32,413 nucleotides of DNA from a virus. A model generated the notes under the pieces. The model worked only from the letters and a program-made list of their open reading frames with translations, had not been told where the DNA came from and made no database searches. Shown here one piece after another: positions 1 through 32,057 of the stretch. The position numbers and the translations under genes were made by a program. The DNA lies in IMG/VR virus record IMGVR_UViG_3300034103_001300, positions 1 to 32,413 of that record; one strand, given 5' to 3'. The first letter of the stretch is position 1. Every line of letters starts with the position of its first letter.

Positions 1-47
1 AGTGCCCGATCAACTTCGAAGAATACCTGCGAGCCTATAACCTTTGA
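1..47 (+). CDS. C-terminal end of an upstream gene, truncated by the window
   Basis: An open frame starting at base 3 reads CPINFEEYLRAYNL and stops at TGA 45-47. It looks like ordinary coding sequence, but only 14 residues are visible, so no function can be given. Its stop codon lies inside the first TTGACA element, as also happens at the stop near 12057. It would belong to the gene just before the terminase small subunit. Confidence 0.35.
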   Translation, partial: CPINFEEYLRAYNL

Positions 48-49
48 CA
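44..49 (+). promoter_or_regulatory. TTGACA start-associated element, copy 1
   Basis: TTGACA lies 13 nt before the ATG at 63 (terminase small subunit). The TGA within it also ends the upstream reading frame. See the finding on this element. Confidence 0.5.
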
Positions 50-62
50 ATGGTTATGGGTT

Positions 63-650
63 ATGTCCCAAGGGTTATCGCAAGGCCAGATCGCCAAGGC
101 GCTCGGCATCAGCCAGCCAGCCGTTGCCAAAGCTGTAAAGCGCGGGATGCCTCTGACCAGCGTCGAGGCCGCGATGGAATGGCGGAGGATAAACCAGAGC
201 GCCAAGCGAAGCAAGACAGCCCCCGGTCAAACCTTAAAGGTCGAGCCGGTTGGGCTGTCGGCATTGCCAGAGTTACCCGACGAGTTGGCCGTGACAGATC
301 GGTTGCGGCGGATCGCCGTCAAAGACTTTGAGAACGCATCGACAATCCAAGAGCGCAGCGCGGCCAGCCGAACGGTCAAAGATGCCGAGGAAGCCCACGA
401 GACTAGGAAGCGTGATCTTGTTCGATCAGAGCAGGAGGCGCAAAATCTTATGCACCGCGATCAGGTGCAGTCGGTGATCGCCGAGGAGGTCGGAAAACTT
501 CGCGCCCTATTGGAAGCCATGCCTGGCGCTATCGCCCAAGCTGCCAACCCTCATGATCCTGAACTGGCCCGCGATGCCGTCGCCGACTACCTCGAACAAG
601 TCTTTTCAACCTTGAGCAATACCGGCCATGCGCTGCGAGTGGATTCCTAA
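63..650 (+). CDS. Terminase small subunit-like protein (Nu1-type, HTH)
   Basis: This 195-residue protein probably recognises phage DNA for packaging and partners with the large terminase encoded next. Residues about 4-30 form a helix-turn-helix (GLSQGQIAKALGIS, QPAVAKAVKRGMP) followed by a segment like the Nu1/MerR-type winged helix. The remainder is charged and largely helical (residues about 85-160, many Glu/Arg/Gln), fitting an oligomerisation region. Its position immediately before a GpA-type large terminase supports the call. The start at 63 places the HTH at the very N-terminus and lies 13 nt after a TTGACA element. Two earlier in-frame-looking ATGs nearby belong to another frame. The 3' end overlaps the large terminase start by 23 nt. 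Family assignment rests on the HTH and synteny, not on a full-length match. Confidence 0.75.
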   Translation: MSQGLSQGQIAKALGISQPAVAKAVKRGMPLTSVEAAMEWRRINQSAKRSKTAPGQTLKVEPVGLSALPELPDELAVTDRLRRIAVKDFENASTIQERSAASRTVKDAEEAHETRKRDLVRSEQEAQNLMHRDQVQSVIAEEVGKLRALLEAMPGAIAQAANPHDPELARDAVADYLEQVFSTLSNTGHALRVDS

Positions 651-2400: not shown

Positions 2401-2402
2401 GT

Positions 2403-2408
2403 TTGACA
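2403..2408 (+). promoter_or_regulatory. TTGACA start-associated element, copy 2
   Basis: TTGACA lies 16 nt before the ATG at 2425, in the 24-nt gap after the terminase stop. The bases after it continue CCGCCGCG, a C/G-rich context shared by several other copies. Confidence 0.5.
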
Positions 2409-2424
2409 CCGCCGCGCGTTCACA

Positions 2425-2745
2425 ATGACGCCGCGCTCCTTTGTTTTCTCAGTCTGGGTAGCCAACAGCAAAGACGCGACAAAGACCGTTGCTGCGCTCG
2501 AGGCGATTGCCGCGAATAACTTCACCGTAGCCAAAGAGGGAGGGCGCGTCCTTGTCTCCGCCTCGATGGGGGGAAAGTCCTACTCATACACGCTCCCGCC
2601 CGACCAGACCGCAGGCACCGTTGCCGAGTTGGCGTTCTATGCGTGGAAGCAAATCAAAGACCTTTCGTCCGCCGACCTCGAGCTTTGGCTGACACGCAAA
2701 ACGTCGAAGACCTCCGTGGTCGCCTTCAATTACCCCCTCGTATGA
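2425..2745 (+). CDS. Small protein in the head-tail connector (gpW) position
   Basis: A 106-residue protein between the large terminase and the portal, where lambda carries the small head-completion gene W. I do not recognise the sequence. It looks like a mixed alpha/beta fold: a strand-rich first half (VFSVWVA, RVLVSAS), then a helix with AELAFYAWKQIKDL and a final strand. There is no signal peptide or membrane segment. The stop overlaps the portal start in an ATGA arrangement, implying coupled translation with the portal. Function is inferred only from position, and it is longer than gpW (68 residues). Confidence 0.65.
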   Translation: MTPRSFVFSVWVANSKDATKTVAALEAIAANNFTVAKEGGRVLVSASMGGKSYSYTLPPDQTAGTVAELAFYAWKQIKDLSSADLELWLTRKTSKTSVVAFNYPLV

Positions 2746-4238
2746 ACCTCGCCGACCGCTGGAAACTAGTCACCAAAGCCTTTAGCCCGAAGGCGCAAAG
2801 CTACGACGCCGCGCGCCCCTCGATCCAGCGCCGCTTCCCTTACAACGCCACCGCCGTTGATTCCCACATCGACGTCAGCGGAGCCGACCGCGAACGGCTC
2901 ATGAAACTCTCGCGCTGGGTGTATAACAACATGCCCTTCGTTCGCGGTCTGATCACTGAGAAAGCCCGCTACGTCACCGGCTCCGGCATCCGTCCGCAGG
3001 CGCGCTCGGGCGACGAAGCATGGGACGCCGCCGCCGAGGCTTTCTTCGAGCAATGGTCACGCGTGGCCGATATCCAAGGCCGTTACACATGGCGCGAAAT
3101 GCAACGCATCGCCTCCGTTGCCATCGACCGCGACGGCGAGGTGTTCTTCCGCACCACCGCGCAAGCGACCGGCTATCCCGCGCTGCAACTCATCCTTGCC
3201 CATCGCATCGGCGATGCGCGCAGTTCCATCTACGAGCCGAGCAATCCCGAAGCCCGCGAGATCGCCATGGGCGCAATCATCATCGACGGCGTGATCGTCA
3301 ATCAACAGATGCGCCCGGTGTCCTACCGCCATCTCATCGGCGACGGCGTTGATCCCTCCCAGCGATTTGAAGACATCCCCGCGCAGCAACTCATCCACGT
3401 CGGCGAGGCCAGCCAAGGCGACGAGCTCCGCTACGTCACCCCGCTCGCCCCCTCGATCAACCACCTCCGCGACGTGTCCGACGCCATCAGCTTTGAGAAA
3501 ATGGCGATCAAGATTTCCTCCTACGTTGCCCTTGCCATCAAGTCGAGCAACCCGCAAGGCGCAGACTTCTTTGGCGAATCCACCGCCAGCGTCAACGCCA
3601 ACGACAACTCCGAAGTCACCGTGGAATCCCTCGGCAACGCCGGGGGAGCCATCCCGCGTCTCGGCATGGGTGAAGACCTCGTGGCATGGAACAGCAATCG
3701 CCCGTCACAAAATTTCCGCGAGTTCTGCGACATGCTTCTCCGCGAAGTCTGCTTGAACATCGGCATCCCGTGGGAGTTCGCCGCGCGTCCTGCCGACGCC
3801 GGGGGAGCCGCCCTCCGTGCCGTGCTCGTCCGCGCCCAGCGCACCTTCGAGCAGCGCCAAGCCCTGCTTATCGACCGTCTCTGCTCCCGCGTTTGGGCGC
3901 ACGTCATCACGCTCGGGATGCAGCGCGGCCTCATCCCGCAAAACGACAACTGGTGGCGTGTCGAATGGCAGCGCCCCGCCGCCGCCTCCGTCGATTACGG
4001 ACGCGAAGCACAGGCCAACCTCAACGACGTCCGCGCCGGGCTTCGCACTTACTCGGAAGATTACAGCGAGCGCGGCCTCGAGTGGAAAGACGCCCTCCGC
4101 CAACGCGCCGCCGAGGCCAAATACCTTGCCGACCTTGCCGCCGAGTTTGGCATCAGCGCCGACAGCATCGCCACCTTCAACCCGAACCCCGCACCGGCCA
4201 CACCCGCCGAGACTTTGACACCGCAGCAAAGCCAATGA
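2742..4238 (+). CDS. Portal protein, lambda gpB family
   Basis: The portal forms the ring at the capsid vertex through which DNA is packaged and to which the tail joins. The 498-residue product matches the lambda-type portal in length and features. It has an N-terminal RRFPYNA segment, then RERLMKLSRWVYNNMPFVRG at about 50-70, typical of this family, followed by a region around DRDGEVFFR at about 125-135. Near the C-terminus IGIPWEF and a helical GAALRAVLVRAQRTFEQRQ stretch match the family's stem region. The start at 2742 overlaps the preceding stop (ATGA). The gene contains a TTGACA element in its last codons that serves the next gene. Confidence 0.92.
   Translation: MNLADRWKLVTKAFSPKAQSYDAARPSIQRRFPYNATAVDSHIDVSGADRERLMKLSRWVYNNMPFVRGLITEKARYVTGSGIRPQARSGDEAWDAAAEAFFEQWSRVADIQGRYTWREMQRIASVAIDRDGEVFFRTTAQATGYPALQLILAHRIGDARSSIYEPSNPEAREIAMGAIIIDGVIVNQQMRPVSYRHLIGDGVDPSQRFEDIPAQQLIHVGEASQGDELRYVTPLAPSINHLRDVSDAISFEKMAIKISSYVALAIKSSNPQGADFFGESTASVNANDNSEVTVESLGNAGGAIPRLGMGEDLVAWNSNRPSQNFREFCDMLLREVCLNIGIPWEFAARPADAGGAALRAVLVRAQRTFEQRQALLIDRLCSRVWAHVITLGMQRGLIPQNDNWWRVEWQRPAAASVDYGREAQANLNDVRAGLRTYSEDYSERGLEWKDALRQRAAEAKYLADLAAEFGISADSIATFNPNPAPATPAETLTPQQSQ
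4215..4220 (+). promoter_or_regulatory. TTGACA start-associated element, copy 3
   Basis: TTGACA lies 14 nt before the ATG at 4235. It lies inside the portal coding sequence (codons for E-T-L-T), so the element is kept even where it must also encode protein. Confidence 0.5.
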
Positions 4239-5317
4239 ACTCCGCCCGCTGGTATGCAATTCAACCGACCGATGACCGCGAAGCCCCCGAAAGCGTGGAG
4301 GTTTCGATCTACGACGAGATCGGGTTTGGCGGAGTCACCGCCAAGCAATTTGCCGCCGACATCAAAAAACTTAAAGGCCAGCACATCGACCTTCGCATCA
4401 ACAGCGTCGGCGGAAGCGTCACCGAAGGCGCAGCCATCTACAACGCCCTCAAGCGTCACAAAGGCGGCTTAACCGTTCACGTTGATGGACTTGCGGCCAG
4501 CATGGCCAGCGTCATTGCCATGGCCGGTGAGGAAACTCGCATGGCCGAAAACGCCCTCATCATGATTCACAACCCTTGGAGCATGACCATGGGCGACGCC
4601 GCCGACCTCCGCAAAGAAGCCGACGTGCTCGACAAACTCAAAGCCACCTTGGTCAACGCCTACGTCCGCAAAAGCGGCCAGCCCCGCGCGTCCATCGAGA
4701 AAATGATGGATGAGGAAACATGGCTCGATGCCGGTGAAGCCCTCCGCCTCGGCTTTGTGGACGAGATCGACGAACCGCTCGCCGCCGCAGCCTCCATCAC
4801 CCCCGAAGCCGCCCGCGCGCGATTCGCCACTTTTCAAAACTCTATGCAAGCCCCCGCTCCCCAAGCTCCCGCCGAGGAAGTCATCAGCGTCACCGACGCC
4901 CCCGTCACCGAAGGCGCGGTTGACATCTCCGAGGAAGATAACATGAACGCCGAACTCCAGGCCAAAGTTGACGCTCTGCAAATCGAGCTCAACGCCAAAG
5001 TCGAAGCCGAAGCCCTCGCCGCGCAAGTCGCCGAAGACACGGCCAAATCTCTCGAAGCCCTCAAGGCCGAAGTCGAGCGCCTCACCGCCGAAGTCGCCTC
5101 CAAGGATGACGAGATCCACGCGCTCAAAGCCGATGCCCAGAGCGCCGGTGCCCAAGCCGCCGCCATTGTCGCCAGCGTCGGCATTGATCCCGTGGTCGCC
5201 GCGCCCGTGGAAGCCGAGCTGACCGCCGCGCAGAAATTCGCCGCGATGGAAGGCCCGGATGCCGTCGCGTTCTACCGCGCGAACAAAGCCGCCATCCTCA
5301 AAACCTTTTACTCCTAA
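4235..5317 (+). CDS. ClpP-type prohead protease fused to a scaffold domain
   Basis: This 360-residue protein probably matures the prohead. Residues 1-200 form a ClpP/crotonase-fold serine protease: RINSVGGSV at 54-62, the nucleophile in GLAASMAS (Ser89), His112 in MIHNPWS, and an acidic residue near Asp159 in the MMDEETW segment. Residues about 237-320 are a long Ala/Glu/Lys coiled coil suited to a scaffold, and the last 40 residues (AAQKFAAMEG to LKTFYS) probably bind the capsid protein. This matches the lambda C/Nu3 design, although lambda C belongs to the S49 family rather than ClpP. It overlaps the portal stop by 4 nt and is followed after 21 nt by the major capsid gene. Confidence 0.92.
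   Translation: MNSARWYAIQPTDDREAPESVEVSIYDEIGFGGVTAKQFAADIKKLKGQHIDLRINSVGGSVTEGAAIYNALKRHKGGLTVHVDGLAASMASVIAMAGEETRMAENALIMIHNPWSMTMGDAADLRKEADVLDKLKATLVNAYVRKSGQPRASIEKMMDEETWLDAGEALRLGFVDEIDEPLAAAASITPEAARARFATFQNSMQAPAPQAPAEEVISVTDAPVTEGAVDISEEDNMNAELQAKVDALQIELNAKVEAEALAAQVAEDTAKSLEALKAEVERLTAEVASKDDEIHALKADAQSAGAQAAAIVASVGIDPVVAAPVEAELTAAQKFAAMEGPDAVAFYRANKAAILKTFYS
4920..4925 (+). promoter_or_regulatory. TTGACA start-associated element, copy 4 (internal)
   Basis: TTGACA lies inside the protease-scaffold gene, 17 nt before the in-frame ATG at 4943. It is followed by GAGGAA at 4931-4936, a plausible Shine-Dalgarno sequence 6 nt from that ATG. Confidence 0.5.
4943..5317 (+). CDS. Scaffold protein from an internal start (Nu3-like)
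   Basis: An in-frame ATG at codon 237 of the protease gene sits exactly at the boundary between the protease half and the coiled coil. It has its own GAGGAA ribosome-binding sequence and a TTGACA element upstream. Translation from here would give a 124-residue free scaffold starting MNAELQAKVDAL. Lambda makes its Nu3 scaffold in the same way from within gene C. The coiled coil shows a run of Leu/Ala heptads with Glu/Lys flanks. The internal product is an inference from signals and domain layout. Confidence 0.6.
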   Translation: MNAELQAKVDALQIELNAKVEAEALAAQVAEDTAKSLEALKAEVERLTAEVASKDDEIHALKADAQSAGAQAAAIVASVGIDPVVAAPVEAELTAAQKFAAMEGPDAVAFYRANKAAILKTFYS

Positions 5318-5338
5318 CCCCTAAACCCAAAAAACTCT

Positions 5339-6235
5339 ATGGCAACTATCTCAAGTTCCCTCAACGACAAGCTCATCGCGCAAGCCGCGCTTGAGTCCTT
5401 CACCGCAGACCTCGAACCGCTTTCCATCTTCACAACCTCGTATTCCAACGAAGTTGTCCGTCGTGGCGCGTCCGTCGAAGTTCCGCTCATCGCCAACCTC
5501 ACCGCGACCACCTTCGACAACTCCTACGAAGTCGACGGCGGCACGATGAACAAAGTCACGATCAATGTGGACACCCACCGCATCGTGACGGTTTCACTGT
5601 CCGACACCGAGTATTCCAAATCCTCGGTTGCCGAGATCACCAAGTTCGCCACGCAGCAAGGCCGCGCCTTGGCTCAGAGCGTGCTGACCTCGTTCTACAA
5701 CCTTTTTGTCACCACGGCTGGCAGCGCAGCGCAGTATAGCGCCTCGCTCACCAACCTCTCGGCCTTCACCATCACCAACGCCCGCGCCCTCCGCAAAGCG
5801 TTGTCCGATGAGAAAGCCCCGCTCACCGACCGCGCCCTCATCCTCAACACCGCGCTCTACGACAGCCTTCTGTCGCAGTCCGGCCTGTTGGATGCCAGCG
5901 CCTTCGGCAGCCGCGACGCCATCAGCGAAGGCCGCGTGCCCCGCGTGCTCGGCATGAACGTCTACGAGTCGATGATCCTGCCCGCCAACGGCATTAGCCT
6001 CTCCGCCATGGCCGTTCACCCCAGCGCCGCCGCCATCGCCGTCCGCGCCTTGGAACCCCAAGCGCCCAGCGAATACTTGGCCGCGACTGTGGTCAACGAT
6101 CCCGCCAGCGGCCTCGCCCTCGGCTATCGTCGCCACTACAACCCCTCGAGCGGCAAGCATTTCGTTTCCTTCGAGTGTGTGTTCGGCGCAAGCCGCGCGA
6201 TCACCGGCGCAGCGAAATTGGCTCTCGGAGCGTAG
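5339..6235 (+). CDS. Major capsid protein
   Basis: The 298-residue protein is the expected shell subunit: it follows the protease-scaffold gene directly and ends at a strong terminator. It has the look of a P22-type coat protein with the HK97 fold. There is a helical N-terminus (SLNDKLIAQAALESF), the GASVEVPLIA and VTINVDTHRIVTVSLSD strands at about 43-85, a long helix ITKFATQQGRALAQSV, and a C-terminal strand ending in VSFECVFGA. No delta-domain-like N-terminal extension is present, consistent with a separate scaffold. No TTGACA element or clear Shine-Dalgarno sequence precedes the start; the leader is A-rich. The function is firm by context; the subfamily is less certain. Confidence 0.85.
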   Translation: MATISSSLNDKLIAQAALESFTADLEPLSIFTTSYSNEVVRRGASVEVPLIANLTATTFDNSYEVDGGTMNKVTINVDTHRIVTVSLSDTEYSKSSVAEITKFATQQGRALAQSVLTSFYNLFVTTAGSAAQYSASLTNLSAFTITNARALRKALSDEKAPLTDRALILNTALYDSLLSQSGLLDASAFGSRDAISEGRVPRVLGMNVYESMILPANGISLSAMAVHPSAAAIAVRALEPQAPSEYLAATVVNDPASGLALGYRRHYNPSSGKHFVSFECVFGASRAITGAAKLALGA

Positions 6236-6269
6236 TTCGTCTCCATCTCCCCATAACTGCAACACGAAG

Positions 6270-6293
6270 CCCCCGGCCAACGCCGGGGGTTTT
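6270..6293 (+). terminator. Intrinsic terminator after the capsid gene
   Basis: CCCCCGGC (6270-6277) pairs perfectly with GCCGGGGG (6282-6289) around a CAAC loop and is followed by TTTTCGTTTT. It probably attenuates transcription between the capsid gene and the glycosyltransferase gene, 35 nt after the capsid stop. Confidence 0.85.
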
Positions 6294-6300
6294 CGTTTTG

Positions 6301-6306
6301 TTGACA
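6301..6306 (+). promoter_or_regulatory. TTGACA start-associated element, copy 5
   Basis: TTGACA lies 17 nt before the ATG at 6324 and immediately after the T-tract of the terminator. Confidence 0.5.
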
Positions 6307-6323
6307 ACCCATCTCCCGCCGAG

Positions 6324-8108
6324 ATGGAGAAAATCAGCCCACGCGAGCAGATCGCGCTTTGTGTTATCGTCGGCAACGAACCCAAACGCCTCGACCGTTG
6401 CCTCACTCAATTCGCCCCCGCCGTCGGCGAGATGGTTGTCGTTCACGCCTGCGGAGCCGAGGCCAAGAGTCTGAAAGTTGCCGAGGTTTGCCAGAAGCAC
6501 GGCGCGAAATACGACGTCTACACCAACGCGCCCGGCAACGAATGGCCGCATGTGGATTCGTTTTGCGATGCCCGGCAAAAGTCCTTCGACCTCGCCACGA
6601 AGCCTTGGGCGCTCTGGGTCGATAGCGACGACACACCCGGCCCGAACTTCGCCACCGCCCTGCACGAGCTTTTGGAAAAGCACGGCGAGAACTTCGATGC
6701 CTTCGCCCTGTATCACAACGTCGCCGGGCGCGGCATCGCTCACAACCTCCGCGAGCGTCTTGTTCGGCGAGACAAAGGCAAGTGGGTCAACCGCATCCAT
6801 GAGAATTTCCAGATGGACGCCGGCACGAACATCGCCCGCTGTGACGCCCCGACCGTGGTGCATTTGCCCGATGACGAACCCAAGCAGGGCAACCACCGCA
6901 ATCTGACCATTCTCGAAAGCATCCCCGAAGCCGAGCGCACCGTCAGCGAGCTTTACCATTTGCACGGCGAATACATGGGCCACGGACGCAAAGCCGAGGC
7001 CATCGCCCTCGCCAAACAAGCCCTCGCCCATCCCGACCTCAAAAGCACCGAACGCTATGAGCTTTGCCTTAACATCGCCGAGCTCGCCCGCCCGGAGATT
7101 TTGGAAACCGGCACGACCGAACACAACGCCATGCTGACCGCGCTGCACAGCGCCTACCGCACGCAGCCGAACCGCCGCGAAGCCTTGGCGCTGCTTGGGG
7201 CCATGCACCTTGACCTCGGCGACCTCGTGACCGCCGAGGCGTATTTACGCGCGATGATGGCCCTGCCGCGCCCCATCGAAAAACCATGGACGCACCGCGA
7301 CGGCCTTTACGGTTGGGCCGGGGAGGCGCTTTGGGCGCAATGGCTTCGCCTGACCGGCCAAGCCGACAAAGCCGACGCCATCGAACGCGCCCGCCTCGAG
7401 GGCCACAAGTATTCCATTAGCGTGTGCCATCCCACCCGAGGCCGCGCGCAACAGGCCGCGCTCACCCGCAAACGCTGGCTCGATGCCGCCGCCAACCCCG
7501 AGCGCATCGAATACATTTTCGGCTTTAGCGCGGACGACGAGGAATCGGTCGGCATCCTTTCCCGTTTCCGTCATGCCATCTCGCCAGCCGGAAACCTCAA
7601 TCGCATCGGCGGCACCGCCGTGCAGAATTACAACGCCGCCACCAACGCCGCGACCGGGCAAATCATCATCACCGCCCAAGACGATGTGTTCCCGCCGCTC
7701 CATTGGGATGTGGCCATCGAGGACGCCCTCCGCGCCCATGTGGACGCCAACCAGCCCGCCATTCTGAAAATCGCGGACGGCTACCGCAACGACGACCTCA
7801 TGGTCACGTTCTGCGTCACCCGCCCGACCTTCCCGCACCTCGGTTACGGCGAGCAAAACATCCTTACGCCCGAATACGCCGGGGTCTTTTCCGATACGGA
7901 GTTTTCCATGCGCGCGAAGCGCAGCGGCTTTCTTGTGCCGTCCGATCTGGTCTTCAAGCACGAGCACCCCTTCTGGAATCCCGCTGTGCCATCCGACGCC
8001 ACCTACGTTGCCGAAAACTCCGAGGATGCCTACCAAGTCGGCGAGGCCATCTTCCGCCGCCGCAACCCCGACCTCGTGCCTAAGGCTGACACCGCCCCCA
8101 GCGCATGA
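6324..8108 (+). CDS. Two-domain glycosyltransferase with a helical-repeat linker
   Basis: The 594-residue protein combines two GT-A-like domains. Residues 1-200 resemble family 2 glycosyltransferases: LCVIVGNEPKRLDRC at 12-26 and a metal-binding DSDD at 100-103. The middle (about 200-355) is helical with TPR-like pairs such as AEAIALAKQALAHP and REALALLGAMHLDLGD. A second nucleotide-sugar-type domain begins near 361 (ISVCHPTRGRA), with AQDD near 450 and KHEHPFW near 545. Lying between the capsid and head-tail joining genes, it probably modifies a virion protein or host surface sugar; the acceptor is unknown. The start at 6324 is supported by an element 17 nt upstream; longer frames into the terminator are rejected. 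The stop overlaps the next start (ATGA). Confidence 0.85.
   Translation: MEKISPREQIALCVIVGNEPKRLDRCLTQFAPAVGEMVVVHACGAEAKSLKVAEVCQKHGAKYDVYTNAPGNEWPHVDSFCDARQKSFDLATKPWALWVDSDDTPGPNFATALHELLEKHGENFDAFALYHNVAGRGIAHNLRERLVRRDKGKWVNRIHENFQMDAGTNIARCDAPTVVHLPDDEPKQGNHRNLTILESIPEAERTVSELYHLHGEYMGHGRKAEAIALAKQALAHPDLKSTERYELCLNIAELARPEILETGTTEHNAMLTALHSAYRTQPNRREALALLGAMHLDLGDLVTAEAYLRAMMALPRPIEKPWTHRDGLYGWAGEALWAQWLRLTGQADKADAIERARLEGHKYSISVCHPTRGRAQQAALTRKRWLDAAANPERIEYIFGFSADDEESVGILSRFRHAISPAGNLNRIGGTAVQNYNAATNAATGQIIITAQDDVFPPLHWDVAIEDALRAHVDANQPAILKIADGYRNDDLMVTFCVTRPTFPHLGYGEQNILTPEYAGVFSDTEFSMRAKRSGFLVPSDLVFKHEHPFWNPAVPSDATYVAENSEDAYQVGEAIFRRRNPDLVPKADTAPSA
8086..8091 (+). promoter_or_regulatory. 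CTGACA variant of the start-associated element
   Basis: CTGACA followed by CCGCC lies 13 nt before the ATG at 8105, within the last codons of the glycosyltransferase gene. Confidence 0.4.
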
Positions 8109-9045: not shown

Positions 9046-9051
9046 TTGACA
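9046..9051 (+). promoter_or_regulatory. TTGACA start-associated element, copy 6
   Basis: TTGACA lies 16 nt before the ATG at 9068, one base after the preceding TAG stop. A TATTAT follows only 12 nt later, too close to serve as a sigma-70 -10 box. Confidence 0.5.
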
Positions 9052-9067
9052 TCGCTGCCTTGGTATT

Positions 9068-9415: not shown

Positions 9416-9449
9416 CCCGCGCTAACGCGCCCAACCTGAGATCGAGATC

Positions 9450-9851: not shown

Positions 9852-9888
9852 TTTGCTGGTTAGTGTGTGTGTTTGTTTGTTCATAACT

Positions 9889-9914
9889 AAGGGCGGGGCT
9901 CCGGCTCCGCCCTT
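9889..9914. terminator. Strong hairpin with UCCG loop, probable terminator or processing site
   Basis: AAGGGCGGGGC (9889-9899) pairs with GCTCCGCCCTT (9904-9914) over 11 positions with one G-T wobble and a TCCG tetraloop. The downstream sequence CCTCTTG is only partly T-rich, so it may terminate weakly or protect transcripts instead. It is preceded by a TG/TTTG simple-sequence stretch (about 9863-9880). It separates the GC-rich module from the AT-rich gene at 9939. Confidence 0.6.
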
Positions 9915-9918
9915 CCTC

Positions 9919-9924
9919 TTGACA
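9919..9924 (+). promoter_or_regulatory. TTGACA start-associated element, copy 7
   Basis: TTGACA lies 14 nt before the ATG at 9939, just after the hairpin. The element has thus been kept in front of a gene of foreign composition. Confidence 0.5.
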
Positions 9925-10654: not shown

Positions 10655-10660
10655 TTGACA
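10655..10660 (+). promoter_or_regulatory. TTGACA start-associated element, copy 8
   Basis: TTGACA lies 16 nt before the ATG at 10677 (tail assembly chaperone). Confidence 0.5.
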
Positions 10661-10676
10661 GCGGGCGCGGGTCGAT

Positions 10677-11072
10677 ATGGACATCGACCCAGAAAAAAGA
10701 TCGGGCCTCCTCGAGCAGGCGGCATTCAGCGGCAACCAAGAGATCCACGGCCTCGAGCTGCGCCCCGTCACGGCAGCGACTTGGAGCCTGCTCTCCCGCC
10801 TCGGCAACCATTTCGTCACCGGCGTGCCCAGCAGCGACAATGCTTTTGCCGTTTACAGCTTCGTCTATCTGCACAGCAAACCGCTGTCCGAAATCCGCCG
10901 CCGCATCGCCGTAATCGACGACCTCCGCGCCGACATCTACGACTTCATGGACGCACGCCCGGTCGAGGACATGTTCGCCTTCCTGCCGTGGATCACGGCG
11001 CAAATGGAGCACGTCGCCGCGACCATCACCGCAAGCGCCCCCGGAGCCGGAACCGCCGACCCAAAAGCCTAA
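10677..11072 (+). CDS. Tail assembly chaperone, short form (gpG-like)
   Basis: A 131-residue protein located directly upstream of the tape measure region, in the place of lambda gpG. It probably coats the tape measure during tail assembly. It is mainly helical (ATWSLLSRLGNHF, DNAFAVYSFVYLHSKPLSEI, DLRADIYDFMDARPVEDMF) with a flexible Ala/Gly/Pro end. Its last codons carry the slippery heptamer C CCA AAA six bases before the stop, the hallmark of this gene pair. The start at 10677 is 16 nt after a TTGACA element. Confidence 0.85.
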   Translation: MDIDPEKRSGLLEQAAFSGNQEIHGLELRPVTAATWSLLSRLGNHFVTGVPSSDNAFAVYSFVYLHSKPLSEIRRRIAVIDDLRADIYDFMDARPVEDMFAFLPWITAQMEHVAATITASAPGAGTADPKA

Positions 11073-11302
11073 ACGCCGCGCGTCCCGCGTGGCAGGTCGC
11101 CATCGCCGCGCGCGTGGCAAAATACGGCATCACCCTCGAGCAAGCCCTCTGGGAATTGCCGCTGGCACTCCTCAACCAACTCGTCATCTACGACGAACTG
11201 GCCAACGGACGCACCCCCCGCTGGTTCACCGACACCGAAACCAGCGCCCAATCCCTCGACGAACTCCTCGCCGCCGCGCTGACACCGCACCCAGAAGCAT
11301 GA
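10677..11302 (+). CDS. Tail assembly chaperone, frameshifted long form (gpGT-like)
   Basis: A -1 slip at 11060-11066 joins the first 130 codons of the short form to the overlapping frame. That frame continues SLNAARPAWQVAIAARVAKY and ends LLAAALTPHPEA at 11302. The fusion would be about 208 residues. The T-part lacks any start codon of its own near its beginning but is clearly coding (ITLEQALWELPLALLNQLVIYDEL), which is what a programmed frameshift predicts. In lambda the long form recruits tail tube subunits to the tape measure. The stop lies just after the next gene's ATG at 11299. Confidence 0.85.
11060..11066 (+). other. Programmed -1 frameshift site C CCA AAA
   Basis: In the zero frame the codons are GAC CCA AAA GCC TAA, and the heptamer CCCAAAA fits the X XXY YYZ rule with X=C and Y=A. 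Slipping back one base gives re-pairing as CCC AAA and continues in the frame of the T extension. The zero-frame stop lies one codon further on. Confidence 0.85.
11279..11284 (+). promoter_or_regulatory. CTGACA variant of the start-associated element, second case
   Basis: CTGACA followed by CCGCAC lies 14 nt before the ATG at 11299, inside the 3' end of the frameshift extension. The layout is the same as for the variant before 8105. Confidence 0.4.
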
Positions 11303-12057
11303 ACGTGACCGTAGAAGCCGACGCCAAAGCCATGCGCCGCTTCCACAGCGCGATCAACGACCTCCGCAAGATCAGCGGCAAGGATTTCGAGCAAGTCATC
11401 AAAGCCGAGCTGGGAGCCGCCTTGAGCAGCGCCGTCACCGCCACGCAAAAGGCCAGCGTCAAGAGCATCGAAAAGAACCACCGCGCCCAACCCGGCGCGC
11501 GCTACGCCATCGAATACGCTGGCCCCGTCTCCAGCACCGGCAAGAGCTACACCCCCGCCCAGATCGACGCCCTCAAGCGCCGTGCCGCCCGGCGTCGCGC
11601 CAATGCCAAGAATGGCAAGCTCGTCTATTATCTCAGCGGCAGCAACCAGTCGCATCAGCATCCCTCGTGGCTGTTCAGCCAGATCAAAGACTTCCGCGAC
11701 AAAAGCCTCGCCAACAAAAAGAAAGCGCGCGGCCTTGCCGCTTCGATGTGGGTCAAGATCGGCGAGGGGCTTGGCATTCCCGTCAAAGCCCCCGGCTACG
11801 TCAAAAATGCCGCGCATCACAAATCCGGCGACATGCGCCACTTGATCGAGCTCAAAAGCACCGGCAAAGGCAACAGCTACGAGATCGGCTTTATTAACAA
11901 GCTCTCCCATGTGAACAAATGGACGCGCGCCGGTGCGACCTTCCGCCAAGCCATGAACCGCCGTGCCAATTTCTTTTCCGCCTCGGTCAAACTGGCCGGA
12001 GCCAAGAAAATCAAAAGCGTCATGGCTCGCTATCCCGGCCTCGCCAGCGTGTCTTGA
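11299..12057 (+). CDS. Basic tail-module protein upstream of the tape measure
   Basis: A 252-residue basic protein between the chaperones and the tape measure gene. I do not recognise a named family. It contains a helical N-terminus (DAKAMRRFHSAINDLRKISG, VIKAELGAALSSAVTATQKA), a very basic patch (DALKRRAARRRANAKNGK, residues about 93-110) and a C-terminal half with GYVKNAAHHKSGDMRHLIELK and NKLSHVNKW. The opening resembles minor tail or virion morphogenesis proteins that begin with paired helices, but that is only an impression. The stop TGA (12055-12057) is part of the next TTGACA element. A structural or assembly role in the tail is inferred from position. Confidence 0.6.
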   Translation: MNVTVEADAKAMRRFHSAINDLRKISGKDFEQVIKAELGAALSSAVTATQKASVKSIEKNHRAQPGARYAIEYAGPVSSTGKSYTPAQIDALKRRAARRRANAKNGKLVYYLSGSNQSHQHPSWLFSQIKDFRDKSLANKKKARGLAASMWVKIGEGLGIPVKAPGYVKNAAHHKSGDMRHLIELKSTGKGNSYEIGFINKLSHVNKWTRAGATFRQAMNRRANFFSASVKLAGAKKIKSVMARYPGLASVS

Positions 12058-12059
12058 CA
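12054..12059 (+). promoter_or_regulatory. TTGACA start-associated element, copy 9
   Basis: TTGACA lies 15 nt before the ATG at 12075. The TGA inside it is the stop codon of the preceding gene, as at copy 1. Confidence 0.5.
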
Positions 12060-12074
12060 TGACCGCCTCGGCAA

Positions 12075-15002: not shown

Positions 15003-15761
15003 ATGGCAATCAAAACCACAGGAGAGGGGAGCAATCTTCGCGTTCTTACCAAGACAGTTGATGGTGAGCAACGAGTTAGCTGTTCGTGCTGTGAGGCGGG
15101 GTGCTGTATGTATTCAGCACAAGGGCTTGTTAACGGAGATTACACACTGGACGATTTGCCAGAAAAAATAGTAGCAAACTCAGATCGTGGCGATGGCTCT
15201 TTTGAATTAACATTAAACAAAAGCAGCTCCTCTTTAGATGCTTTCTTTTATTTCAGTGATAGTCAGACGGATTTAGTTTTGGTTTCTTTGTCAACCGAAC
15301 CTGAACCGATTTGGGATGTAGGTTTTCAAATTTATGATGCAAGCCTTGATCCTCCAATTAGATCATATGGCTTCACGTCTAAATGTCTTATTAAGGGCGA
15401 CGGCAATCTAACGCAAGAGGACGATTTGGTGGAGGATCAGTTTGCGGATGAATACAACGTGGAAATTACGGGTAAGGATAATTTTTCATTAAACGCAACT
15501 GTCACGCGCAATGAATTGTGTGTTTGGCAATATTCTGATGGGTCAACGGGCGTCACCCTTCAATTTTCTGACTTTCTTCAAAAGTGGATTGTGGATGGAT
15601 TGGAAGACGGCGGGGGACTTGTAAATTGGGCTACATTTGGGTTAAAAGAAAACCCACAAAATACCCCATTAGGAACATATGAAGTGACATCTGCTTTTAA
15701 TCTGGGCACTGGTGGTCAATTTAGCACGGCAGGCGTTACAATTACTGTCTCCGAAGCATGA
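15003..15761 (+). CDS. AT-rich tail-region protein with a cysteine cluster
   Basis: The 252-residue protein has clearly AT-rich codon usage, unlike the tape measure gene before it or the GC-rich genes after 15758. It starts MAIKTTGEGSNLRVL and has a dense cysteine motif at about 27-37 (SCSCCEAGCCMY), which could bind metal or form disulfides. The remainder is beta-rich (FELTLNKSSSSLDAFFYFSD, TDLVLVSLSTEPEPIWDVGF, SFSLNATV-like strands, GVTITVSEA at the end), as in fibre or tip proteins. No family is recognised. The composition suggests recent exchange, and the cysteine cluster is rare in tail proteins. The stop overlaps the next start by 4 nt. Confidence 0.75.
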   Translation: MAIKTTGEGSNLRVLTKTVDGEQRVSCSCCEAGCCMYSAQGLVNGDYTLDDLPEKIVANSDRGDGSFELTLNKSSSSLDAFFYFSDSQTDLVLVSLSTEPEPIWDVGFQIYDASLDPPIRSYGFTSKCLIKGDGNLTQEDDLVEDQFADEYNVEITGKDNFSLNATVTRNELCVWQYSDGSTGVTLQFSDFLQKWIVDGLEDGGGLVNWATFGLKENPQNTPLGTYEVTSAFNLGTGGQFSTAGVTITVSEA

Positions 15762-15997: not shown

Positions 15998-16003
15998 TTG
16001 ACA
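15998..16003 (+). promoter_or_regulatory. TTGACA start-associated element, copy 10
   Basis: TTGACA lies 13 nt before a GTG start at 16017, which supports that non-ATG start. Confidence 0.5.
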
Positions 16004-16016
16004 CGCCGCTGCTGGC

Positions 16017-17594: not shown

Positions 17595-17600
17595 TTGACA
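17595..17600 (+). promoter_or_regulatory. TTGACA start-associated element, copy 11
   Basis: TTGACA followed by CCCCGCC lies 19 nt before the ATG at 17620, the longest gap of the set. Confidence 0.5.
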
Positions 17601-17619
17601 CCCCGCCCGCGATAACGCC

Positions 17620-19466: not shown

Positions 19467-19472
19467 TTGACA
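19467..19472 (+). promoter_or_regulatory. TTGACA start-associated element, copy 12
   Basis: TTGACA followed by CCCCGCCG lies 13 nt before the ATG at 19486, and is almost identical to copy 11. Confidence 0.5.
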
Positions 19473-19485
19473 CCCCGCCGCAGGC

Positions 19486-22464: not shown

Positions 22465-22592
22465 TGTTCCGCCGCGTATGTCAAAGTGGCCGTGTCCTAA
22501 ATCGCCCACCAAGCCTGCAAATCCGCCAAGGCCAACTATCCATTTTCCCACAAAGTATTGACTTATGGCGATACGCTAAGATTAGTTGCTGT
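22465..22592. promoter_or_regulatory. Divergent intergenic region between the minus-strand and early operons
   Basis: The 128 bp separate two outward-facing genes and should hold both promoters. A TTGACT at 22558-22563 faces right, but the nearest -10-like hexamers (TAAGAT at 22577, TTAGTT at 22582) are poorly spaced or weak. I therefore cannot define the exact promoters. The left-facing gene has a TTGACA element here. Confidence 0.45.
22479..22484 (-). promoter_or_regulatory. TTGACA start-associated element on the minus strand
   Basis: The plus strand reads TGTCAA, so the minus strand carries TTGACA 14 nt before the ATG at 22464. This is the only minus-strand copy I found near a gene start. 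Confidence 0.5.
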
Positions 22593-22946
22593 ATGGCGAT
22601 TTGCCCTCACTGCGGCCAAAAGATGCCCAAAGCGCGGTTGCCCGCATGGGCGAAGGATTACGAGAGGTTGGGGGAGGTGAGGAAACGCACGGCGCAAATG
22701 CTCCGGGAGGCCGACCCGCTGGAAGGATTGCCCGCCCAAGCCAAGAAAGCCCTTGGCGGAGTGGGGGCCGACGCCCCGGAGAAAATCGCCCGCGCCTTGC
22801 AATACAAATTAGTCACACGGCAGACCAAAGGCGTGGGTGATCGCACCTACGCGAAGATCGAAAAGTGGCTTTTCACGAGGGGAATCATGCGCGTCTCGGA
22901 GGACGAAAACTTTTTTTACCGGGGGACAAAAAAATTGTTGACGTAA
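22593..22946 (+). CDS. Early gene with an N-terminal zinc knuckle
   Basis: The 117-residue protein starts MAICPHCGQKMPKARLP; the CPHC pair is a zinc-binding half-site. A helical charged region follows (KDYERLGEVRKRTAQMLREA) and then a section EKIARALQYKLVTRQTKGVGD. The end is strand-like (KWLFTRGIMRVSEDENFFYRG). I do not recognise the family. As the first gene of the rightward early operon it may be a regulator. Its last codons overlap the -35 region of the next promoter. Confidence 0.65.
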   Translation: MAICPHCGQKMPKARLPAWAKDYERLGEVRKRTAQMLREADPLEGLPAQAKKALGGVGADAPEKIARALQYKLVTRQTKGVGDRTYAKIEKWLFTRGIMRVSEDENFFYRGTKKLLT

Positions 22947-22979
22947 GACGAGTGTTCATGTATTACGCATCATGAACAC
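22938..22979 (+). promoter_or_regulatory. Promoter with an overlapping operator (autoregulation likely)
   Basis: TTGACG (22938-22943) and TATTAC (22961-22966) are spaced by 17 bp, fitting a sigma-70 promoter. A 9-bp inverted repeat, GTGTTCATG (22952-22960) and CATGAACAC (22971-22979), brackets the -10 box with a 10-bp spacer and includes the ATG of the next gene at 22972. A protein bound here would block the promoter. The gene it controls encodes a ribbon-helix-helix-like protein, the kind that binds such operators. Confidence 0.6.
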
Positions 22980-23487: not shown

Positions 23488-23699
23488 TGGAGCGTAATAA
23501 CATGAATGACGCAAATACGTTGCAGCCGGTCACAATACGGCTGGCACCGGGAGTTTTAAGCGTAGCCCGCGCGGAGGGAGAGTTCCGCAAAGGGGGAACA
23601 AGCGCGGTGCTAAGAGACTGGCTGAAGCGAGGTATGGGCAACAAGCGAATTTTTTGCGGCAAAGACGTATTACGCCGTAATACAACCCAAAAACACTAA
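23487..23699 (+). CDS. Second ribbon-helix-helix-like protein
   Basis: A 70-residue protein with strand PVTIRLAPGVLS and helices (VARAEGEFRKGGTSAVLRDW), matching the same fold as the gene at 22972. A basic tail (KRGMGNKRIFCGKDVLRR) completes it. It starts at ATG 23487 overlapping the preceding stop. Its last codons contain a perfect inverted repeat at 23667-23683. Confidence 0.6.
   Translation: MERNNMNDANTLQPVTIRLAPGVLSVARAEGEFRKGGTSAVLRDWLKRGMGNKRIFCGKDVLRRNTTQKH
23667..23683. repeat. Inverted repeat GTATTAC / GTAATAC
   Basis: GTATTAC (23667-23673) and GTAATAC (23677-23683) form a perfect 7-bp palindromic pair around GCC. Copies of the half-site occur at 22960-22967 and 23253-23260. The repeat could be a binding site for the local ribbon-helix-helix proteins and lies 20 nt before the next gene. 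Confidence 0.55.
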
Positions 23700-25783: not shown

Positions 25784-25831
25784 ACAAAACCAAGACGCCG
25801 GGAGGCGGCAACCCCCCGGCGCAATTAGCAC

Positions 25832-26419
25832 ATGAACACAGAACAAGCGAACATAGTGCAGCCCATAGGCAAAGCCATTGCCGCTGCATTTGTCAAGGCA
25901 CAGGCGGAGTTTGGCCCTGCGCTAAAAACCAGCACCAACCCACATTTCAAGAGCAAGTATGCGGGACTTGAAGAGTGTGTAGAAGCAGTTAGCCCTGCGC
26001 TTCACAAAAACGGCATTGCCATCATTCAACGCACGCAGCTTTGTGAAAATGGCATCATTGTAGAGACGGTGCTCGTGCATACGAGCGGCGAGACTTTGAG
26101 CGGAGGTCTTTTGCACGTCCCGGCGAGTAAGAATGACCCGCAGGGCTACGGCTCAGCACTTACTTACGCGCGGAGATACAGCCTGATGGCGACCTGCGGC
26201 ATTGCTGCCGAGGACGATGACGGCAATGCGGCATCTAAGCCCGTGTCCTATACGACCCAGCGCAAGCCGACTGCGCGCACGACCGACGAAATCGAAAGCA
26301 TCGCGGCTGATGTGATCAAGCTCAACCGCCCCGACAAACCTCTTCCGCCCGGCAAGGCGGCAGCAAAAACCGAAGCGGCAACTTCATCGAAGGACGATGA
26401 CGACCTGCCGTGGAACTAA
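25832..26419 (+). CDS. ERF-family single-strand annealing protein
   Basis: A 195-residue recombinase of the ERF superfamily. NPHFKSKYAGLEECVEAVSPAL at about 36-57 and the family hallmark GYGSALTYARRYSLMA at about 105-120, followed by AAEDDDGN, are diagnostic. The C-terminal tail ends in SKDDDDLPWN, an acidic tip that may bind partners in the same way as SSB tails. It pairs complementary strands exposed by the exonuclease encoded downstream. Start at 25832, without an SD sequence but in an A-rich leader; the gap from the resolvase is 48 nt. No frame break is seen. Confidence 0.92.
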   Translation: MNTEQANIVQPIGKAIAAAFVKAQAEFGPALKTSTNPHFKSKYAGLEECVEAVSPALHKNGIAIIQRTQLCENGIIVETVLVHTSGETLSGGLLHVPASKNDPQGYGSALTYARRYSLMATCGIAAEDDDGNAASKPVSYTTQRKPTARTTDEIESIAADVIKLNRPDKPLPPGKAAAKTEAATSSKDDDDLPWN

Positions 26420-26442: not shown

Positions 26443-26721
26443 ATGATCAGTCTATCAATCAAAACAGAGAAGCTTGAGAGAGAGCACATCATCGAGGGCA
26501 AGAACGGCAAGATCGTTGCCGTGGTCTTGTTTGAGAACAAGGACGGCAAGAGCCAATACGGCGATGACGGCTATGCTAGGCAAAGCGTCAGCAAGGAAGC
26601 ACGCGAAGCTGGGGTGCGTGGCCCGATTGTCGGCAACTGGCGCTACATCGGCCAAGGGGCCAGCGCGCCGAAGGCAAAGCCCGAAGCCAGCGAAATGGCG
26701 GATTCAGACATTCCGTTTTGA
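26443..26721 (+). CDS. SSB-like protein of the phage recombination module
   Basis: A 92-residue protein. The body MISLSIKTEKLEREHIIEG, then VAVVLFENKDGKSQYGDDG and SVSKEAREAGVRGPIVGNWRYIG is a compact strand-rich fold seen in small phage proteins annotated as ssDNA-binding. The C-terminus, after a Lys/Pro/Ala linker, ends in ADSDIPF, which closely matches the bacterial SSB tip (DDDIPF) that recruits repair proteins. It therefore probably binds ssDNA or competes for SSB partners. Start is the ATG at 26443, 23 nt after the ERF stop in an AC-rich leader. Confidence 0.75.
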   Translation: MISLSIKTEKLEREHIIEGKNGKIVAVVLFENKDGKSQYGDDGYARQSVSKEAREAGVRGPIVGNWRYIGQGASAPKAKPEASEMADSDIPF

Positions 26722-26726
26722 AGCTC

Positions 26727-27572: not shown

Positions 27573-27934
27573 CTTGGCAACCTGACTTGTTCGACACGGG
27601 GAGCGCGGCTGTTATCGACGTTTCCCCGGTGCGGCACACCGACCCGGAGACGTGTGAGGAGGCGCGGAAGGACGCGCTATCGAACGCGGCACGGGGGCGG
27701 AAGATTGCGTTGGATTTGCTATTTGCGAACCCGGAAGGGCTGACGGATTTCGAGTTGGCCGAGCTTTCGGGGTGGCAGCAAACGTCCATCGGCAAACGGC
27801 GCGGGGAATTGCGCGACCTCGGACTGGTCGAGGACTCGGGCCTTCGCCGGCCAAGTCCAAGCGGCAGCAAGGCGATTGTCTGGAGGGTGGTCGAAACGTC
27901 CAACGCAAAAAGAGTGGCGGAGTATTACATATGA
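27569..27934 (+). CDS. Winged helix-turn-helix protein
   Basis: A 121-residue protein. DFELAELSGWQQTSIGKRRGEL at about 54-75 is a helix-turn-helix with recognition helix TSIGKRRGEL, followed by DLGLVEDSGL and a wing (RRPSPSGSKAIVWRV). This layout is widespread in phage early regions. The N-terminal TCEEARKDALSNAARGRK helix may oligomerise. It probably binds DNA as a replication or transcription partner. It overlaps both neighbours by 4 nt; the final codons hold the sequence GTATTACAT before the next ATG. Confidence 0.8.
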   Translation: MTWQPDLFDTGSAAVIDVSPVRHTDPETCEEARKDALSNAARGRKIALDLLFANPEGLTDFELAELSGWQQTSIGKRRGELRDLGLVEDSGLRRPSPSGSKAIVWRVVETSNAKRVAEYYI

Positions 27935-30141: not shown

Positions 30142-31106
30142 TCTGGCTAAACCTTAAAACAACAACCCTGCGCTCGCCCGAATATGCCGGGAGCGAGCCG
30201 GTGCAGCGGGCCACTTGGCTCAACATTCTGGCCTATTGCTGCGAGCAGGAGAACGGCGGCAAAATCGAGGGCTGTGGCGGCTGGAAGGATCGCCAATGGC
30301 AGCAGACGCTTGGGGTGACGTTGGCCGAAGTGCAGGACGATTGCGCGCTGTGGCATTGGGAGGGCGAGACGTTGTGCGTGGCGTTTTATCCGACCGACAA
30401 ACAGGAGGAAGTGAAGGCCAAGCGGGACGCTGGAAAACGGGGCGGAAAACGCTCTGGAAAGTCCCGCCGCGAAGCAGTCCGCGAAGCACAGCTTGAAGGA
30501 GTGCTTGAAGCACAGCTTGAAGCAGAGCTTCAACCAAACCGCATTTTGCTTGAAGCTGAGCTTGAACGGAAAGGAAAGGAAGGGGAATGGAAAGATAAAG
30601 GAAAGGAAACACTGACTGTCGTCAGTGACGCACCGCAGTTGGAGGATTTGCTGCACGTTGCCCCGACTTTGCCGCAAGTCATCGAAGCCGGAAGACGCTC
30701 GTCCATTCCCGAGGACGTGTGCCGAGCCTATCACGACGACCGCGAGGGCGCGGGGTGGCTGGACGGCAAAGGCAGGCCGGTTAAGTCCATGCCTCACGAT
30801 CTTTCGGGATTTTGGCGCAAGTGGCAGAGCAACCGCAGCCCGAAGCAGTTTGGCAATGGCACGGTGGCCTCGAACGGAAACCCGAAGCCGGGCGAGGGCG
30901 TGTGGCATCTGGAAAAACGCATTGGGGCCGCGCAAGCGGAAATCTCACAACTCCAAGGCGACCCGAATAACAAAGAGCCGGTCAACCCGGAGACACCGTG
31001 GGATCGACGGCTGAAGCCCGACGTGGCGAAGCGGATTGCCGAACTCAAGACGGGCATTGCCGCGATGCGTCGGCAACTGGCCGGTGGGGAAGGGGTGGCC
31101 GCGTGA
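30138..31106 (+). CDS. Replication initiator-like protein carrying an internal repeat array
   Basis: A 322-residue protein that occupies the position of lambda gene O behind the recombination genes. The N-terminal domain (LKTTTLRSPEYAGSEPVQRA, then WLNILAYCCEQENGGKIEG) resembles the winged-helix start of phage replication proteins. Residues about 95-160 are very charged and repetitive (SRREAVREAQLEGVLEAQLE, LLEAELERKGKEGEW), encoded by iteron-like DNA. The C-terminal part (IPEDVCRAYHDDREGAGWLDGKG, then DLSGFWRKW) resembles the DNA-binding end of such proteins, followed by a coiled coil. Function as initiator is inferred. Confidence 0.65.
   Translation: MIWLNLKTTTLRSPEYAGSEPVQRATWLNILAYCCEQENGGKIEGCGGWKDRQWQQTLGVTLAEVQDDCALWHWEGETLCVAFYPTDKQEEVKAKRDAGKRGGKRSGKSRREAVREAQLEGVLEAQLEAELQPNRILLEAELERKGKEGEWKDKGKETLTVVSDAPQLEDLLHVAPTLPQVIEAGRRSSIPEDVCRAYHDDREGAGWLDGKGRPVKSMPHDLSGFWRKWQSNRSPKQFGNGTVASNGNPKPGEGVWHLEKRIGAAQAEISQLQGDPNNKEPVNPETPWDRRLKPDVAKRIAELKTGIAAMRRQLAGGEGVAA
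30483..30627 (+). other. Putative replication origin inside the initiator gene
   Basis: The 16-mer GAAGCACAGCTTGAAG occurs at 30483-30498 and again at 30507-30522. The core GCTTGAA recurs in a 12-bp register at 30491, 30503, 30515, a variant at 30527, then 30548 and 30560. Directly downstream, about 30566-30609 is almost pure purine (runs of GGAAAGGAAAGGAAGGGG type). A perfect 7-bp hairpin follows, CACTGAC (30610-30616) and GTCAGTG (30621-30627) around TGTC. Iterons followed by an easily melted stretch inside the initiator gene is the lambda O arrangement. Confidence 0.5.
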
Positions 31107-31306
31107 GCGAATCCCTTCGCGCTTATATCGCCGCCCGTGGACTCGACGCCCGGCTGGTCATGAATGAACTGCAAGAGCACAACGTGATTTCAGACAATGC
31201 CGTGCACGTGGAAGACGTAGGCAATGGCGGTGCAGCTATTGCTTTCCTCGAAAAACGCGACCAGCGGGCTTTACGGGCGCGGAATGAGGCAAGGAGGGCG
31301 GCATGA
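31103..31306 (+). CDS. Small early protein, GTG start
   Basis: A 67-residue protein starting with GTG inside the previous stop. It reads SESLRAYIAARGLDARLVMN and then an acidic-hydrophobic part (QEHNVISDNAVHVEDVGN), ending in a basic helix (EKRDQRALRARNEARRA). It has a mixed alpha/beta look, with no membrane segment. I do not recognise it. The stop overlaps the next start by 4 nt. Confidence 0.6.
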   Translation: MSESLRAYIAARGLDARLVMNELQEHNVISDNAVHVEDVGNGGAAIAFLEKRDQRALRARNEARRAA

Positions 31307-31473
31307 GCATCCCGAAACCGTTGCCCAAAAACGCTGGGCATTACGGACGAAGCCCCATCCGGCCGATTGGTACGCGATTGGCGCGCAAGCGGACCAAACG
31401 CAAACACGACCGAGCCAAAGCCAAAACGAGACGACTTATGCAAAAACTCAGCAGACGGAGGAACCGTAGATGA
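31303..31473 (+). CDS. 56-residue arginine/lysine-rich protein
   Basis: The frame begins at ATG 31303, with AAGGAGGG 4 nt upstream, the best Shine-Dalgarno match in this part of the window. The product MSIPKPLPKNAGHYGRSPIR ends in a very basic string (RLARKRTKRKHDRAKAKTRR, then QKLSRRRNRR), with about 40% Arg or Lys. It probably binds nucleic acid or a negatively charged host target. The stop TGA overlaps the next ATG. The short length explains why it could be missed by size-limited gene calling. Confidence 0.6.
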   Translation: MSIPKPLPKNAGHYGRSPIRPIGTRLARKRTKRKHDRAKAKTRRLMQKLSRRRNRR

Positions 31474-32057
31474 TTGACATGAAACGCGCGCAAATGCTTG
31501 GAGGCGACCCCGCAGACCGCAAAGAGGCCAGCTATTGGCCGGAACACGAGGACAGGCCGGAGGACATCTGGGCGGACGAATGGCTGGAAATGTGCCGAAG
31601 GGACGACGTGACCGTTTGCCCGGACGCTGTGACGCATGGCAAGGCGGCAGTGCTCAAGGTGCTCAAGGTCACTGACCAAGACGCGCATCGGCTGGCGCAA
31701 CGCGAGGCCATTGTGCGTTTCCTGCAACAGGCGCGCGAGGTGTCGGCGTGTCCCGATTTGCAATATTTCGTGGCGTGCTGGCAGGCGGCTTTCGAGCTCG
31801 AAGACCGCGACGAGGACAAGACGCAGACGGCCATCGCCAAGCAGTTCGACGTATCGCGTGCGGCGGTATCGAAGCGCGTGGTGGAGATTCGAAAAGCGGC
31901 CAATGACAAGACGATTGCACGTTCACAGAAAAGCATTGCGGCAAGGAAAGTTTACGCCCTTCGGCAAATGATCGTTGGGCAGACCAGAAAGAAAATCGAC
32001 CTAACCTCAACACAGAAAGAGACATCAGACCTATGGACATCAACGGGAAACAACTAA
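31470..32057 (+). CDS. HTH regulator-like protein
   Basis: The 195-residue protein has a helix-turn-helix in its centre-right part, TQTAIAKQFDVSRAAVSKRVVEIRKA at about residues 112-137. TAIAKQF and SRAAVSKRV resemble sigma-factor-like or Trp-repressor-type HTHs. The N-terminal half is acidic (WPEHEDRPEDIWADEWLEM), followed by KVLKVTDQDAHRLAQREAIV. Such proteins often control late genes in phages. An in-frame ATG at 31494 lies 14 nt after a TTGACA and could be the real start, omitting eight residues. The 3' end overlaps the next gene by 25 nt. Confidence 0.6.
   Translation: MIDMKRAQMLGGDPADRKEASYWPEHEDRPEDIWADEWLEMCRRDDVTVCPDAVTHGKAAVLKVLKVTDQDAHRLAQREAIVRFLQQAREVSACPDLQYFVACWQAAFELEDRDEDKTQTAIAKQFDVSRAAVSKRVVEIRKAANDKTIARSQKSIAARKVYALRQMIVGQTRKKIDLTSTQKETSDLWTSTGNN
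31474..31479 (+). promoter_or_regulatory. TTGACA element inside the HTH gene
   Basis: TTGACA lies 14 nt before the in-frame ATG at 31494, raising the possibility that translation begins there rather than at 31470. It is the only exact copy I found in the early module on the plus strand. Confidence 0.35.

Follow-up and report, generated by a model that had tools for sequence, protein, structure and literature searches.

A start-proximal TTGACA element as a candidate late promoter for leaderless or near-leaderless mRNAs in a phage lineage

The window analysed here is the whole of a 32.4 kb IMG/VR virus record, in which genes for TerL, a portal protein, a ClpP-like protease, a capsid protein and a tape measure protein were recognised. 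A full scan returned 13 exact copies of TTGACA on the plus strand and three on the minus strand. The first-pass annotation had placed all 13 plus-strand copies 13–19 nt upstream of a start codon and had assigned the same spacing to two CTGACA variants and one minus-strand copy, and every one of these positions proved correct. The sites are given below (coordinates span the hexamer and the gap, i.e., the nucleotides between the hexamer and the start codon).

44..62, plus strand: TTGACA, gap 13, before ATG 63 of a TerS-like gene
2403..2424, plus strand: TTGACA, gap 16, before ATG 2425; 69 homologous contexts
4215..4234, plus strand: TTGACA, gap 14, before ATG 4235 of a ClpP-like head protease gene
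4920..4942, plus strand: TTGACA, gap 17, before the internal in-frame ATG 4943 within the protease gene
6301..6323, plus strand: TTGACA, gap 17, before ATG 6324 of a glycosyltransferase-like gene
8086..8104, plus strand: CTGACA variant, gap 13, before ATG 8105 of a head-tail attachment gene
9046..9067, plus strand: TTGACA, gap 16, before ATG 9068
9919, plus strand: TTGACA, gap 14, before ATG 9939
10655..10676, plus strand: TTGACA, gap 16, before ATG 10677
11279..11298, plus strand: CTGACA variant, gap 14, before ATG 11299
12054..12074, plus strand: TTGACA including the TGA stop of the upstream gene, gap 15, before ATG 12075 of the tape measure gene
15998..16016, plus strand: TTGACA, gap 13, before GTG 16017
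17595..17619, plus strand: TTGACA, gap 19 (an outlier), before ATG 17620
19467..19485, plus strand: TTGACA, gap 13, before ATG 19486 of a 53-codon gene
22465..22484, minus strand: TTGACA (hexamer at 22479), gap 14, before ATG 22464 of the first gene of a leftward unit
31474..31493, plus strand: TTGACA, gap 14, before ATG 31494 of a helix-turn-helix (HTH) gene

Several genes next to these sites are tightly joined to their neighbours: TerL at 628 overlaps the TerS-like gene, the portal gene at 2742 comes after gene 2425 via an ATGA overlap, and the two genes after 22464 in the leftward unit are joined by ATGA overlaps. The hexamer before the internal ATG 4943 is conserved in 76 contexts with a gap of 14 or 17 nt, and this ATG may open a nested scaffold-like gene, whose sequence is coiled-coil-like by inspection. 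A nested scaffold gene within a protease gene is likewise found in lambda (C/Nu3).

The number of copies in the window is unremarkable (16, compared with 11.7 expected on both strands), but their position is not. The chance of finding 12 of the 13 plus-strand copies at 13–17 nt is 6e-11 when any ATG, GTG or TTG opening 40 codons is permitted as a start, and about 2e-27 when curated starts are used, so the placement of TTGACA is non-random while copy number alone stays near chance. A third CTGACA (2689) and the minus-strand TTGACA copies at 15289 and 25891 lie away from starts. When scanned with controls for copies outside start-proximal positions, the association between hexamer and start codon held.

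The same arrangement was found in the phage family to which the window belongs, i.e., 76 related viral contigs retrieved by TerL, which from the record names are probably of freshwater origin. Related loci contain 406 copies on the plus and 19 on the minus strand, and 391 of 405 copies in the related contigs stand before a start, with gaps forming a sharp box at 13–17 nt and almost none at 12 or 18 nt. These sites represent 63 independent sequence contexts (<60% identity), which points to repeated selection rather than a single inherited stretch. In loci collected by the capsid gene, 236 of 243 copies precede starts, and in clades with TerL 53–57% identical to the L069 query, 62 of 77 and 127 of 164 copies do so. 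Phages related by a 48%-identical helicase alone do not have the signal. Late loci mostly carry 4–8 copies per 10 kb and early-region loci eight plus-strand copies in 68 kb; the signal is thus restricted to late, structural genes and most early genes are without it. Together with the 388 Verrucomicrobiota genomes, which have no clear excess of TTGACA at 13–17 over 22–26 nt, this distribution supports the earlier proposal of a phage-specific late control signal.

The hexamer is strict in sequence. Among 18 single-base variants examined at 13–17 nt, CTGACA alone is clearly enriched, and variants of the G:U type stay at background level. The hexamer is the exact sigma70 −35 sequence, yet it does not show the degeneracy usual for −35 boxes. 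Related contigs have no strongly conserved base outside it, and of the CCGCC extension noted in the first-pass annotation only a weak C bias directly after the hexamer remains, with no fuller CCGCC motif. The stretch between hexamer and start is GC-rich (62% GC) and has no −10 element 16–18 nt after the hexamer, information being flat except at the start codon; the absence of TATAAT and the lack of a Shine-Dalgarno (SD) sequence in the majority of element-bearing genes, both noted previously, were therefore borne out. A weak second element, RGY, lies 11–13 nt after the hexamer (G12, z=6.4; C13, z=4.8). When a 4-nt matrix built from the nucleotides preceding ATG in gap-13 sites was applied to gap-15, -16 and -17 sites, it scored best at nt 10–13 after the hexamer and not before the ATG, which indicates that RGY keeps its register with the hexamer rather than with the start codon. 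Start codons begin 0–4 nt after RGY.

Away from starts, TTGACA is avoided. Compared with synonymous-codon shuffles of plus-strand genes, the family has three copies on the sense strand where 83 are expected (ratio 0.04) and 12 on the antisense strand where 51 are expected (ratio 0.23), and the sense/antisense ratios are 0.12/0.20 in clade B and 0.15/0.25 in clade C; loci within each set are homologous and the counts non-independent, and the three clades agree. P8625-type phages show no depletion (0.81/1.02), other hexamers in the same shuffle test gave ratios of 0.33–1.5, and unrelated phages, for which a coarser gene set with ORFs taken on both strands was used, gave 1.19/0.99. In L242–L244, a small sample of phages with the short spacing, sense depletion is absent (0.76). 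Since a translation signal depends on a start codon and acts on the sense strand alone, depletion on both strands favours a signal acting at the level of DNA.

The element also adjoins transcription terminators, of which two lie in the window:

6265..6306, plus strand: intrinsic terminator (MFE −26.3) downstream of the major capsid gene, its T-run continuing into TTGACA 6301
9888..9924, plus strand: intrinsic terminator, MFE −21.1, running into TTGACA 9919

Distinct terminator-like sites with [TC]TGACA within the following 20 nt number 13 of 20 in the family, five of ten in clade B and one of ten in clade C. The 13 family cases are strong hairpin-plus-T-run terminators ending 1–13 nt upstream of the hexamer, and the other seven look, by eye, like stem-loops of coding sequence. 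Late genes without the element, on the other hand, are mostly placed for translational coupling, as 10 of 12 overlap the upstream stop or start at most 5 nt from it. The capsid gene lies 21 nt from the upstream stop in the window and a few nt from it in many relatives. This complementarity does not by itself separate the readings discussed below, because a leaderless promoter predicts it equally.

A different spacing was observed at early genes, where two sites conserved in relatives have the form of leaderless-type promoters:

22558..22592, plus strand: putative early leaderless-type promoter, TTGACT-N29-ATG 22593
22938..22971, plus strand: putative early leaderless-type promoter, TTGACG-N17-TATTAC-N5-ATG 22972

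Their spacing of 28–29 nt is the distance expected between a −35 box and a leaderless ATG, suggesting conventional leaderless promoters. Late genes of P8625-type phages have TTGACA 28–30 nt before ATG, and close relatives within a single capsid group fall into both spacing classes (13–17 nt in L242–L244, 28–30 nt in L236–L241). In P8625 itself (L105), the TTGACA-N30-ATG sites at 5411, 10735 and 15557 enclose a GTATCC..GGATAC palindrome, imperfect in the third; the L241 spacer has CTAAC..GTTAG and that of L236 has CCAAT at a constant position. An RNA hairpin looping out the 28–30 nt spacers was rejected as a general rule for P8625-type phages (mean shuffle rank 0.42), such hairpins being clear at some sites and missing at others.

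A verrucomicrobial host is plausible from the capsid protein, which shares 31% identity with its counterpart in Verrucomicrobia phage P8625, and from TerL, whose many relatives include the TerL of an Akkermansia phage; when 84,980 genomes were searched with TerL, no relative exceeded 33% identity. Use of the 13–17 nt signal by the host was considered for Verrucomicrobiota with high TTGACA..ATG counts and rejected, as the sampled genomes have no peak and a shifted pattern reached scores just as high. In several Verrucomicrobiota, TTGACA is commoner 27–31 than 22–26 nt from ATG (188 vs 64 in G161 and 271 vs 129 in G018, examples picked by eye from the genome tables), in keeping with leaderless host promoters. 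The sections of PMC10783764 consulted list SD-scarce Verrucomicrobia and make no mention of TTGACA.

One gene behind the element could encode its reader:

31494..32057, plus strand: HTH protein of 187 aa, candidate reader, its own gene behind TTGACA

Clades B and C have homologs of this gene, which is conserved in the family and was not detected in the complete P8625 genome. Of the loci collected by HTH homology (L338–L376), most of which belong to lineages already counted, 38 of 39 have at least one plus-strand TTGACA at a start, the exception being L350. The protein weakly resembles many families, including Sigma70_r4 (Pfam best E 0.004); a PDB sequence search with it gave no match below 0.1, and a structure model (mean pLDDT 69) no confident fold match. 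That it reads the element is speculative.

Considering these findings, we propose that TTGACA-N10-RGY is probably a late promoter of this phage lineage, giving leaderless or near-leaderless mRNAs; promoter activity, start point and leaderless translation are what we infer from the sequence patterns. A phage factor, for which the HTH protein is the best candidate, would redirect host RNA polymerase to the hexamer late in infection. RNA would begin 11–14 nt downstream of the hexamer, at or just past RGY, placing the hexamer at roughly −19 to −14, and the start codon would follow 0–4 nt further, so that late mRNAs would be (nearly) leaderless and require no SD site. Each late transcription unit would carry one hexamer, with downstream genes translated through stop-start coupling. 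A start at or just after RGY would explain both edges of the 13–17 nt box, since an ATG cannot precede the transcript start, which sets the lower limit of 13, and leaders counted from nt 14 would be 0–4 nt long. This reading is favoured by the position of the hexamer before starts, the depletion on both strands, the RGY register, the adjoining terminators, the coupled genes without the element, the 28–30 nt promoters of early genes and P8625-type phages, and the distribution of the HTH gene. Several observations count against it: the DNA that would have to melt is rich in GC and has no −10 element, antisense depletion in the family is weaker than sense depletion, L242–L244 show no sense depletion, only one of ten clade C terminators adjoins the element, RGY is weak, and so is the likeness of the HTH protein to sigma region 4. 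TTGACA is the sigma70 −35 consensus and would here act 15 nt closer, which is a further point against a promoter. To our knowledge, an element about 14–19 nt upstream of the transcript start matches no known sigma class. The more specific picture of a small phage that has no polymerase of its own, whose HTH protein directs host polymerase to one-hexamer promoters (TTGACA-N10-RGY) of the individual units, with initiation at the start codon in every case, and whose whole late regulon is leaderless, is put forward tentatively.

The first-pass annotation had also considered a translation-start signal, in which UUGACA 13–17 nt before AUG would be bound by the ribosome, a ribosome-associated protein or a phage protein and would replace SD in late mRNAs. 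The narrow range of distances to the start codon, similar in tolerance to SD spacing, the GC-rich gap without a −10, the presence of the element where coupling is absent and its occurrence before the nested scaffold start would all fit, but such a signal would not call for the depletion of start-less copies (about 25-fold in sense, 4-fold in antisense), for RGY fixed relative to the hexamer, or for terminators adjoining it, and it was disfavoured on these grounds. Early genes manage without the element, and the Verrucomicrobiota genomes lack it as a clear 13–17 nt excess. Pairing with rRNA is further opposed by the lack of G:U-wobble variants and by a sequence non-complementary to an AGGAGG-type 16S tail, although the host's tail may differ. 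A phage ribosomal protein as reader was rejected, as neither bS21 nor S1 was matched by the window proteins scanned with Pfam. We regard a translation element as rather unlikely.

Cleavage of mRNA by an endoribonuclease that recognises UUGACA and cuts 11–13 nt downstream would also yield leaderless mRNAs and would account for both the strong sense depletion and the hexamer-locked RGY; it leaves the antisense depletion and the directly upstream terminators unexplained and appears very unlikely. An ordinary sigma70 promoter, with TTGACA as −35 and with the −10 and start site within the gene, has the exact consensus and the 28–30 nt placement in P8625-type phages in its favour. However, a −10-like signal is missing at all distances, the single-base variants typical of −35 boxes are unused, and the transcript would lose a start codon (ATG or GTG) that is conserved across homologs, making this highly improbable. 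The earlier statement that these are not ordinary promoters therefore stands as regards the sigma70 type, while a promoter of another kind remains the likeliest function.

Compared with known systems, the proposed promoter shares features with several and coincides with none of them. T4 late promoters use a phage factor on host polymerase and have one AT-rich element, which precedes the start by about 10 nt; the likeness lies in a single short element without a −35/−10 pair before many late genes and in the phage factor proposed here, whereas in the studied phages TTGACA would lie about 14–19 nt upstream, with a GC-rich gap. The promoters of P8625 and of the early genes in the window, presumably leaderless and of sigma70 type, likewise have TTGAC(A), and there too the supposed transcript start falls at a start codon, but they differ in spacing (28–30 vs 13–17 nt), in a −10-like sequence at some sites and in the absence of depletion elsewhere. 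SD and non-SD translation signals likewise occupy a window at a fixed place upstream of start codons; the hexamer differs in sequence and distance and in the avoidance of start-less and antisense copies. Phages with their own multisubunit RNA polymerase use late promoters such as AACA-N6-T[A/G] in AR9 and TATG in phiKZ and resemble the present case in a short motif at a small set distance from the start, in many individually promoted late genes and in internal promoters able to yield truncated products (PMC5312081). There, on the other hand, the polymerase is phage-encoded, the motifs lie nearer the start and AR9 leaders measure 26–491 nt (PMC5312081), while the studied phages have genomes of about 32–37 kb and putative leaders of 0–4 nt; no multisubunit RNA polymerase gene was found among the window proteins scanned. 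In the part of the open-access literature covered, no comparable signal is described, and a description elsewhere is possible.

If correct, the proposal would describe a promoter geometry without a match known to us among described sigma classes in a widespread uncultured phage group, with late transcription tied directly to leaderless translation, and hence an unusual mode of turning on phage genes. Besides, the hexamer can serve in practice to locate gene starts in such phages, as it corrects the starts at 31494 and 22464 and exposes the nested scaffold-like gene.

Other features of the window were also observed. Before the Erf-like gene at 25832, a GC-rich hairpin (25793–25823) with GGCGGCAAC in its loop is conserved in clades B and C, where the changes in its stem appear to compensate one another, and matches no Rfam family. 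A conserved hairpin at 9416–9449 is followed in relatives by AGAGAT..AGATT directly 5' of ATG 9450. Near early genes, a GTATTACG/CGTAATAC inverted repeat at 23660–23685 and 22958–22966 is possibly an operator. Finally, CCCAAAAG at 11060–11072, just 5' of the stop of gene 10677–11072 with the −1 frame open to 11302, is a probable tail-chaperone frameshift site.
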